Shown here piece by piece: positions 6,920 through 42,778 of a DNA stretch of 64,000 nt. The stretch lies in the NCBI RefSeq assembly GCF_900177245.1, contig NZ_FXBM01000001.1:496001-560000 (forward strand), given 5' to 3'. The stretch is from Rathayibacter oskolensis (lineage in GTDB: Bacteria > Actinomycetota > Actinomycetes > Actinomycetales > Microbacteriaceae). The notes under the pieces are model-generated. The model saw only the letters and a list, made by a program, of their open reading frames with translations, searched no databases and was not told the DNA's origin. Numbering within the stretch: position 1 is the first letter of the stretch; every line of letters begins with the position of its first letter. The position numbers were made by a program, and so were the translations under genes.

Positions 6920-6948
6920 TTGACCGGCCCCGTCACTCCCCGTAATAT
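6920..6948 (+). promoter_or_regulatory. str operon promoter (rpsL)
   Basis: TTGACC (6920-6925), a 17-bp spacer and TAATAT (6943-6948): the best sigma70-type promoter in the window. Transcription would begin near 6955, leaving an untranslated leader of about 260 nt before rpsL. That leader (to 7213) holds no gene; it contains a clear stem GCACGCCG/CGGCGTGC at 7090-7110. Confidence 0.8.
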
Positions 6949-7089
6949 TCTTCGGGTGTGCGCTTTGTCGTGCGCTCGTGTCGTGCCTCCGGGTCGGCGC
7001 CGGCGCGGCACTGTGCTCTACCGGGTCCGCAAGGGTCCGAGGGTTCGTCCGATCGGGCGGCCCCCACGGCATATCCGTCCTCCTCCCCA

Positions 7090-36393: not shown

Positions 36394-36514
36394 CTGCACT
36401 CCCTCCGTGTGACGGGGAAAGCCTAGGCGGCGCGCGCACGCGGCTCCGCGGCGGCGCATCCTGCGCGCCGTCCTGCTCCGAGCCGGAGGGCCCCGTCCGT
36501 GCGACACGCCCGAG

Positions 36515-36544
36515 CTGGCGGAGGAGGCCGGATTGGCGTAGTAT
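36515..36544 (+). promoter_or_regulatory. infA operon promoter
   Basis: TAGTAT (36539-36544) is a good -10 box; CTGGCG (36515-36520) with 18-bp spacing is a weak -35. Placement is supported by the shared sequence that follows both this -10 and the rplM -10. Confidence 0.55.
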
Positions 36545-36590
36545 CGACCCTTGGTGTTTTGCGCGTGCTCCGGCACGCCCGCGCACCTCG
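36544..36590 (+). promoter_or_regulatory. Structured leader element shared with rplM (infA copy)
   Basis: Begins with TCGACCCTTGGTGTTTT (36544-36560), identical to the rplM leader. GGTG (36553-36556) can pair with CACC (36584-36587), enclosing a TTTT internal loop and the stem GCGTGC/GCACGC (36563-36568 with 36573-36578) capped by TCCG. Being at the extreme 5' end of the transcript, it could be a target for a ribosomal protein or initiation factor. No RNA family is assigned. Confidence 0.6.
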
Positions 36591-36674: not shown

Positions 36675-36896
36675 ATGGCCAAAAAAGACGGTGTCATCGA
36701 AATCGAAGGTGCGGTTGTCGAGGCGCTCCCCAACGCGATGTTCCGCGTGGAGCTGACCAACGGACACAAAGTTCTCGCCCATATCTCGGGCAAGATGCGT
36801 CAGCACTACATCCGAATCCTCCCCGAGGACCGGGTGATCGTGGAGCTGAGCCCTTACGACCTGACCCGCGGCCGGATCGTCTACCGCTACAAGTAG
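36675..36896 (+). CDS. infA: Translation initiation factor IF-1
   Basis: 73 residues, OB fold. [42 protein letters not shown] is diagnostic. IF-1 occupies the A site during initiation. First gene of the alpha-type cluster; leader of roughly 120 nt including the structured element shared with rplM. Confidence 0.98.
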
Positions 36897-42115: not shown

Positions 42116-42164
42116 GTCACGTCGCCCGGGCGAGCACCCTGCGCGTCACCCTCCCGGGCGCGGC

Positions 42165-42193
42165 TTCCGCTGATGAGCCGTTTGCTGTAATGT
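42165..42193 (+). promoter_or_regulatory. rplM-rpsI promoter
   Basis: TAATGT (42188-42193) as -10 with TTCCGC (42165-42170) 17 bp upstream as a weak -35. The -10 is followed by the same bases as the infA -10. Confidence 0.55.
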
Positions 42194-42230
42194 CGACCCT
42201 TGGTGTTTTCGGCCGTGTGCCGACCACCCG
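42193..42230 (+). promoter_or_regulatory. Structured leader element shared with infA (rplM copy)
   Basis: TCGACCCTTGGTGTTTT (42193-42209) as in the infA leader. GGTG (42202-42205) pairs with CACC (42225-42228), enclosing TTTT and the stem CGGC/GCCG (42210-42213 with 42219-42222). The inner stem sequence differs from the infA copy while pairing is kept. Confidence 0.6.
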
Positions 42231-42331
42231 AAGTTGAGCCCTCCACCGGATCGGTTCGGCCCCCTCGCGGGTCGAACGGCCACGGAGCGGGATTCACGAA
42301 CACCTCACTCCGACCAGAAAGCAGCACTCAC

Positions 42332-42778
42332 GTGACTCGCACTTTTTCTCCGAAGCCGGCTGACGTCCAGCACGACTGGATCGTCATCGACGCGTCCGAC
42401 GTCGTGCTCGGCCGTCTCGCCACCCACGCCGCAGCGCTCCTGCGCGGCAAGCACAAGCCGACCTTCGCGCCGCACATGGACATGGGCGACTTCGTCATCA
42501 TCGTCAACGCCGAGAAGGTCGCCCTCACCGGCCAGAAGCTCCTCCAGAAGAAGGCCTACCGCCACTCCGGCTACCCGGGAGGCCTCTCGGCTACCACGTA
42601 CGCCGAGCTCCTCGAGAAGAACCCGACCCGCGCCGTCGAGAAGGCCATCCGCGGCATGCTCCCGAAGAACTCCCTCGGTCGTGCGCAGCTGCGCAAGCTG
42701 AAGGTCTACACGGGCTCCGAGCACCCTCACGCGGCCCAGCAGCCCAAGGCGTACGCCTTCACCCAGGTCGCCCAGTAG
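42332..42778 (+). CDS. rplM: 50S ribosomal protein L13
   Basis: 148 residues. Early assembly protein of the 50[32 protein letters not shown] and the C-terminal [19 protein letters not shown] are conserved. GTG chosen because VTRTFSPKP is the family N-terminus and AGAAAGCAG lies upstream; the upstream in-frame ATG falls in the leader. Confidence 0.97.

Follow-up and report, generated by a model that had tools for sequence, protein, structure and literature searches.

Lemke, in 2011, is said to have placed the ribosomal-protein promoters of E. coli under ppGpp/DksA, and Aseev, in 2016, reportedly described transcriptional control under ppGpp/DksA for the operons rplM-rpsI, rpmB-rpmG and rplU-rpmA of the same bacterium. 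We know of no initial-transcript sequence shared by the ppGpp/DksA promoters of E. coli, and in its rrnB P1 promoter the second base of the discriminator is C. The signal analyzed here resembles the E. coli ribosomal-protein and rRNA promoters in that the same three operons are controlled and in its 8-nt GC-rich discriminator, which is also that of rrnB P1. Two bases below the -10 the signal has G, where the rrn P1 promoters of E. coli have C.

In C. glutamicum and M. tuberculosis, translation genes whose expression is reduced in a (p)ppGpp-dependent manner carry a TTTTG motif at -35, according to a C. glutamicum study that also reports the absence of any motif in the discriminator (PMC6892785). 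Our signal shares with the TTTTG-motif promoters its occurrence in actinobacteria and before translation genes, the TTTGACC of its rplU-type members overlaps TTTTGnC, and GTP starts are enriched in that study; it differs from them in that discriminator and start are strongly conserved, and in that the infA and rplM promoters of the window, both with weak -35 elements, lack TTTG. The same study mentions the GTP start as a known control in B. subtilis (PMC6892785). In mycobacteria, the GC content of the discriminator sets open-complex stability, according to PMC10232725. The likeness to the CarD-tuned promoters of that work is that discriminator composition, and possibly the initial transcript, would act on open-complex stability or escape; the difference is that CarD is described there as recognizing no specific DNA motif, whereas a fixed sequence marks one regulon here. 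Finally, L13 leaders are named for E. coli, Firmicutes and Bacteroidetes in PMC7247131. As in those, a structured leader precedes rplM, but this one has no Rfam match and its motif is common to several operons rather than tied to L13.

The signature of discriminator, start and hairpin was not found in the literature searched, most subscription papers lying outside its coverage, and only PMC6892785, PMC10232725 and PMC7247131 stood out there as relevant; among the titles listed for mapped start sites in Microbacteriaceae, none appeared pertinent. As far as that literature and PMC6892785 go, the discriminator, start and hairpin part is new, and the -35 motif of such genes was already known in Corynebacterium.

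A 17-mer shared by infA and rplM in Rathayibacter

The window is the whole stretch of 64,000 nucleotides of Rathayibacter oskolensis DNA that was analyzed. An earlier note had reported an identical 17-mer at the start of its infA and rplM operons, and this was confirmed: TCGACCCTTGGTGTTTT is present as an exact copy on the + strand at 36544-36560 (infA) and at 42193-42209 (rplM), two sites 5.6 kb apart and identical over 17 nt. The sequence also bears out the claim that the first T of the 17-mer is the last base of a -10 element in both cases (TAGTAT and TAATGT), and the reported lack of a third copy in the window holds even when up to three mismatches are allowed. None of 100 shuffled windows reached two matches to the 17-mer. 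The features of the window are as follows.

36515..36520, + strand: weak -35 of the infA promoter, CTGGCG, with an 18-nt spacer to the -10 (from the sequence)
36539..36544, + strand: -10 of infA, TAGTAT, its last T being the first base of the 17-mer (from the sequence)
36545..36552, + strand: discriminator CGACCCTT of infA, untranscribed if the start is GG (putative extent)
36553..36587, + strand: probable +1 of infA (G36553) and predicted 5'-terminal hairpin GGTGT...GCACC (fold of -17.4 kcal/mol; putative start)
36675..36896, + strand: infA (IF-1), with rpsM, rpsK, rpoA and rplQ downstream (from translation and neighbors)
42188..42193, + strand: -10 of rplM, TAATGT (from the sequence and profile R1)
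42194..42201, + strand: discriminator CGACCCTT of rplM (from the sequence; putative extent)
42202..42228, + strand: probable +1 of rplM (G42202) and predicted 5'-terminal hairpin GGTG...CACC (fold of -12.0 kcal/mol; consensus helix of 33 leaders)
42232..42331, + strand: remaining rplM leader, including a second element that hardly varies (alignment A2, 33 leaders)
42332..42778, + strand: rplM (L13, GTG start), then rpsI (from translation and neighbors)
6920..6977, + strand: rpsL-rpsG-fusA-tuf promoter with TTGACC, TAATAT, TCTTC and a hairpin of nine pairs that begins with GGGTGTGCG (from sequence and fold)

In a collection with one genome per species (84,980 species), for which about 30 chance matches are estimated, the exact 17-mer gave 24 matches in 23 stretches. 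Twelve of them correspond to infA or rplM in six Rathayibacter genomes, one to the rpmE (L31) leader of Microbacterium resistens, and other, distant bacteria account for the remaining 11, one match each. Each of the six Rathayibacter genomes has exactly two copies of the 12-mer CGACCCTTGGTG, at a distance of 5.0-5.7 kb. Genome-wide, the 17-mer was tested in relatives of the window's organism: all 15 Rathayibacter genomes match it with up to three mismatches, and 13 of them do so at both infA and rplM, the remaining two (G161 and G163) keeping the infA site and having a more diverged rplM site (TAGTCTCTCTCTTTGGTG and TAGGCTCTCCCCTTGGTG). Over 30 loci each in the family, the consensus is GATCTTTGGTG for infA and GACCCTTGGTG for rplM. 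The full identity over 17 nt is thus a special case of Rathayibacter, the local extreme of a degenerate signal.

Members of the signal in the family, order and class

A degenerate 18-nt pattern, TANNNTNGAYCYTTGGTG, derived by visual inspection of just the infA and rplM leaders, matched 347 times at up to one mismatch in 150 Microbacteriaceae genomes, versus 96 times for the backward pattern. Among the matches listed, those with zero mismatches were located by eye at infA, rplM, rplU or rpmB. Twenty-four places outside infA and rplM, picked by eye or as loci with other one-mismatch matches left out, comprised 17 at rplU(-rpmA), three at rpmB, three at rpsT and one inside an unrelated ORF. Chance as the origin of the shared 17-mer is rejected by the shuffles, by the two-copy 12-mer and by the counts of the forward and backward patterns.

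We used a sequence-only profile (R1; 48 positions) built from 60 sites (alignment A1) at infA, rplM, rplU, rpmB and rpsT, partly of the same genomes, which makes the counts for these five genes partly circular; the sites at rpsM, rpmH, rpoB, rpmE, rpmF and tRNA genes are outside its training set. Within the window, R1 found only infA (36514-36558, 31 bits, E 1.9e-8) and rplM (42162-42207, 24.8 bits, E 1.8e-6), the next best match having 4.5 bits. The three best matches were infA, rplM and rplU in every one of the 15 Rathayibacter genomes, with E below 0.04 except for the rplM of G161 (E 0.5). Three weak Rathayibacter matches (E above 0.1) were examined, corresponding to two tRNA-Ser loci and to this rplM.

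Among 50 Microbacteriaceae genomes, 41 had R1 matches at E up to 0.02, with 99 places in total: 30 at infA, 30 at rplU, 24 at rplM, nine at rpmB, two at rpsT, and one each at rpsM, rpmH, tRNA-Gln and rpoB. All 99 lie upstream of core gene-expression genes, and 97 precede ribosomal-protein genes or infA; the rpsM member (608 in L332) is 0.44 kb downstream of its site. Six of the nine genomes of this sample without an R1 match are of 1.8 Mb or less. In 119 genomes of the order, which include some Microbacteriaceae (G001, G086, G113, G148), 17 had matches at E 0.01, and all 29 places found precede gene-expression genes (14 rplU, eight infA, three rplM, two rpmE, one yceD-rpmF and one tRNA-Trp). 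Of 197 class-level genomes, 12 had matches at E 0.01, those new with respect to the other samples being at rplU (three genomes), rplM, infA and rpmF. Among the order and class sites, three at rplU belong to genomes (G210, G253, G315) whose size of 7.2-7.9 Mb exceeds that of every family genome examined, which places them outside Microbacteriaceae indirectly. The rpmH, rpmF, rpoB and several rplU labels are based on reading the translations.

For rplU across the class, a match was present in 114 genomes, of which 50 loci were examined: the 30 with the best protein match and 20 others that we selected. A -35 of the TTT[GT] type together with a -10 was found in 27 of them, with YGGYG 6-8 nt below the -10 in 23 of those 27; the other 23 loci gave no promoter with the regular expression used. 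Many rplU sites carry TTTGACC at -35. Like those of rpmB and rpsT, the rplU sites are elsewhere in the genome than infA and rplM.

The shared control signal proposed in the earlier note is therefore well supported, as all 99 family sites precede gene-expression genes, and the expectation that the motif would be conserved in relatives and restricted to translation genes is favored by the 97 sites at ribosomal-protein genes or infA. Its restriction to the two operons of the window does not stand, rplU-rpmA being equally common as a member and rpmB, rpsT, rpmE, rpmF, some tRNAs and one rpoB adding to the set. The 17-mer represents two copies of a widespread promoter-and-start signal of protein-making genes in actinobacteria.

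The promoter of the str operon (rpsL-rpsG-fusA-tuf) in the window is a structural cousin of these sites: TTGACC and TAATAT, 17 nt apart, are followed by TCTTC and by a hairpin led by GGGTG at the probable start, without the GACCC discriminator, and its R1 score of 4.1 bits comes from the -35 and -10 only. The rRNA promoters were rejected as members, the motif being absent from 10 rrn loci of seven genomes. Those loci show promoters of the TTGACA type, with TAA(G/C)TT or something close to it and a start region that closes with AGTTGCC or GTCGCC, one example being TAAGTT-AGACAAGTTGCC. Family rRNA promoters, located at L355-L364 some 250-670 nt ahead of the 16S gene, have a conserved start of their own, for instance TAAGTT and then AGAC(A/G)AGTTGCC, sometimes in tandem copies.

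Register to the -10 and predicted hairpin at the probable start

The position of the signal was analyzed in the 30 infA and 30 rplM loci whose proteins are most nearly identical to those of the window, which are therefore from closer relatives; two of the rplM loci were unusable. TANNNTNGAYCYTTGGTG was present at up to one mismatch in all 30 infA loci (shuffles, 1/600), and a site with up to two mismatches was found in 19 of the 28 usable rplM loci. By eye, four of the nine rplM loci without the site have a hairpin-like start led by GG, with a shorter discriminator and GGTTG(T/C)C. In the subgroup of L122, L126, L132 and L134, inspection by eye shows the motif upstream of rplM replaced by a -10 with a shorter discriminator and GGTTG(T/C)C, for which a pairing partner such as GACGACC lies downstream.

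When GAYCYTTGGTG was searched without requiring a -10, it was found at up to one mismatch in 48 of the 58 infA and rplM loci, and in all 48 a TANNNT is placed exactly one base before it. The G two bases below the -10 is present in at least 90% of the 60 A1 sites, which were selected with a pattern that asks for that G and allows up to two mismatches. Because the -10 ends on the first T of the 17-mer, the usual distance places +1 near TTGG. Start bases in C. glutamicum are A in 63.1%, G in 33%, C in 2.6% and T in 1.3% of cases, and GTP starts make up 55.7% of the promoters with (p)ppGpp-dependent reduction as compared to 33% overall (PMC6892785); these statistics favor GG over T as +1. At two tRNA-Ser loci of Rathayibacter, both weak R1 matches (E 0.13 and 0.28), TACACT-CGACCCC stands directly before the GG that is the 5' end of the mature tRNA. 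The first nine bases of the 17-mer thus most likely comprise the end of the -10 and the discriminator, and transcription would most likely start at GG (36553 and 42202). The claim that the identity is confined to the first transcribed bases has to be amended accordingly, since about half of the 17-mer is probably discriminator and only its second half would be transcribed.

A hairpin that starts immediately from this GG is frequent, with a variable 3' arm and pairing kept, and its excess over chance is moderate. In the window leaders, the minimum-energy fold differs when longer stretches are folded (at least 90 nt for infA; 110 nt for rplM). Mean z-scores of 60-nt leaders compared to dinucleotide shuffles were -1.67 for infA (n = 55), -0.94 for rplM (n = 28), -1.07 for rplU (n = 54), -0.79 for rpmB (n = 9), -1.29 for rpsT (n = 5) and -2.5 for rpmE (n = 2). 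The first four bases were all paired in 40/55 infA leaders (23.6 expected from mononucleotide shuffles), 19/28 rplM leaders (13.4) and 32/54 rplU leaders (22.6), barely above expectation in rpmB (4/9; 3.4) and without excess in rpsT (1/5; 1.4). Compared to dinucleotide shuffles, pairing of at least three of these four bases showed a small excess in infA (50/55; 46.8), rplM (27/28; 23.0) and rplU (49/54; 42.9), and rpsT had 1/5 vs 2.8 expected.

For the rplM helix, 88.2% of the cells in 33 leaders were paired; shuffling lowered this to 80.4% (sd 1.6), and sliding the partner arm to 18-65%. Ten double-change cells were counted vs 3.4 in shuffles, all at one of the five pairs, and the number of pairs with any double change (1) is the same as that given by shuffles. 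The 5' arm GGTG hardly varies, whereas its partner can be CACC, CGCC, CATC, TGCC and others, which points to a second constraint on this arm besides pairing. In seven of eight cases, leaders with GGCG or GGCT fold better than they would with GGTG, partly through G+C content, whereas for GGTC, GGTT, GGTA, GGCC and GGAT this holds in only four of 13. Across the class, rplU often begins with GGCGC...GCGCC, in a hairpin such as GGCGCTCTTCGCGCC. Several rplU leaders (e.g. L197, L214, L222) share TTTTCTG downstream of the first hairpin.

Further into the rplM leader there is a second element, TGAGCCCTCC ... GGAGCGGGATTCACGAAC ... AGAAAGCAG, nearly invariant in the 33 aligned leaders, whose middle block can also be read as GGAG[CT]GGGATTCACGAAC. 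It is a candidate actinobacterial L13 autoregulatory leader, and its predicted stem hardly varies, which makes covariation uninformative. Rfam gave no match in the window at gathering thresholds, none at rplM up to E 5, and at infA a single chance-level match to the opposite strand (14.1 bits, E 1.8). A known RNA family, L13 leader included, is rejected because no Rfam match was above chance.

A promoter-level reading and its alternatives

The consensus of the signal is TTTGACC or a weaker -35, a spacer of 17-18 nt, TANNNT, NGAYCCTT and GG(T/C)G where transcription probably begins, in most cases with a hairpin directly after it. Its sequence is shared, its register to the -10 is fixed, it is placed almost exclusively before translation genes, and it is conserved. 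On balance, we consider it somewhat probable that the 17-mer comprises the end of the -10, the discriminator and the transcription start of housekeeping promoters that form a special class and serve translation operons in Microbacteriaceae and related actinobacteria. As a composite of core promoter and initial transcript, it would give these operons growth-controlled transcription begun with GTP. The fixed register, the conserved G at the second base and the GG start suggest that RNA polymerase and sigma, and not a separate factor, recognize the signal, and we infer from the sequences that RNA polymerase itself would read the element.

A G two bases below the -10 contacts sigma region 1.2, and the conserved G would make this contact here, with the 8-nt GC-rich discriminator tuning the lifetime of the open complex. 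With a GTP start, the operons would fall together as GTP falls and (p)ppGpp rises, and the 5'-terminal hairpin could shield the end of the mRNA. In this way, translation genes would form a regulon whose coordination needs no DNA-binding regulator of its own. Judged from these features, the genes are most likely marked so as to be turned up or down jointly, and start-site NTP sensing would be the leading candidate mechanism. Several points count against this promoter-level reading. The site is missing from nine of the 28 usable rplM loci, nine of the 50 family genomes and most genomes of the order and class samples gave no R1 match, and both -35 elements of the window are weak and lack TTTG. 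A G at that position would stabilize open complexes, unlike the situation in E. coli rrn P1, and the rRNA promoters of these bacteria have another start sequence, so that common GTP/ppGpp control would not require precisely this motif.

The signal could instead act in the RNA, GGUG and its hairpin at the extreme 5' end blocking 5'-end dependent decay or binding a common RNA-binding protein, with promoter conservation as a by-product. An RNA-binding regulator is conceivable because the hairpin begins at the probable +1, and the pairing and double-change cells of the rplM helix, the excess of first-four pairing over mononucleotide shuffles at infA, rplM and rplU, the better folding of the GGCG and GGCT variants (partly a matter of G+C), the GGCGC...GCGCC of class-wide rplU and the str operon hairpin without GACCC all speak for this RNA-level reading. 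We nevertheless regard it as rather unlikely, given that the excess over dinucleotide shuffles is small and rpsT falls below expectation, that the pairs with a double change match those of shuffles, that the other GG variants seldom fold better than GGTG, that pairing alone is insufficient to explain a near-constant GG arm with a varying partner, and that GAYCC most likely lies outside the transcript. The promoter layer and the RNA layer are compatible, and both can be true together.

An operator for a DNA-binding regulator that overlaps the start appears improbable. The rplM and rplU form does contain a short ACC-N3-GGT dyad (ACC-CTT-GGT in GACCCTTGGTG), but this is broken in the infA form GATCTTTGGTG, the spacing to the -10 is invariant in the 48 loci, tighter than an operator would need, and a few sites are also found before tRNA genes and one rpoB. 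That one promoter was recently copied from one of the two neighboring operons to the other, by duplication or gene conversion, is suggested by sites 5.6 kb apart that are identical over 17 nt but is very improbable, as the flanks are unrelated and the rplU, rpmB and rpsT sites are elsewhere in the genome; conversion between infA and rplM is rejected by the separate consensus form that each keeps family-wide.

Within the promoter-level reading, we tentatively propose a possibility in which we have rather less confidence, that a "start code" takes the place of a regulator. NGAYCCTT, GGYG and an immediate hairpin would be read by RNA polymerase and then as the 5' end of the mRNA, uniting ribosomal proteins, IF-1, some tRNAs and occasionally rpoB, strictly in Microbacteriaceae and more loosely at rplU across Actinomycetes. 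Since the signature picks translation promoters with almost no others, it gives a candidate list of co-regulated operons, and it may be used as a finder of translation promoters in unannotated genomes. As it names precise bases, it would allow a test of whether polymerase kinetics and the starting GTP suffice for a regulon in these bacteria.
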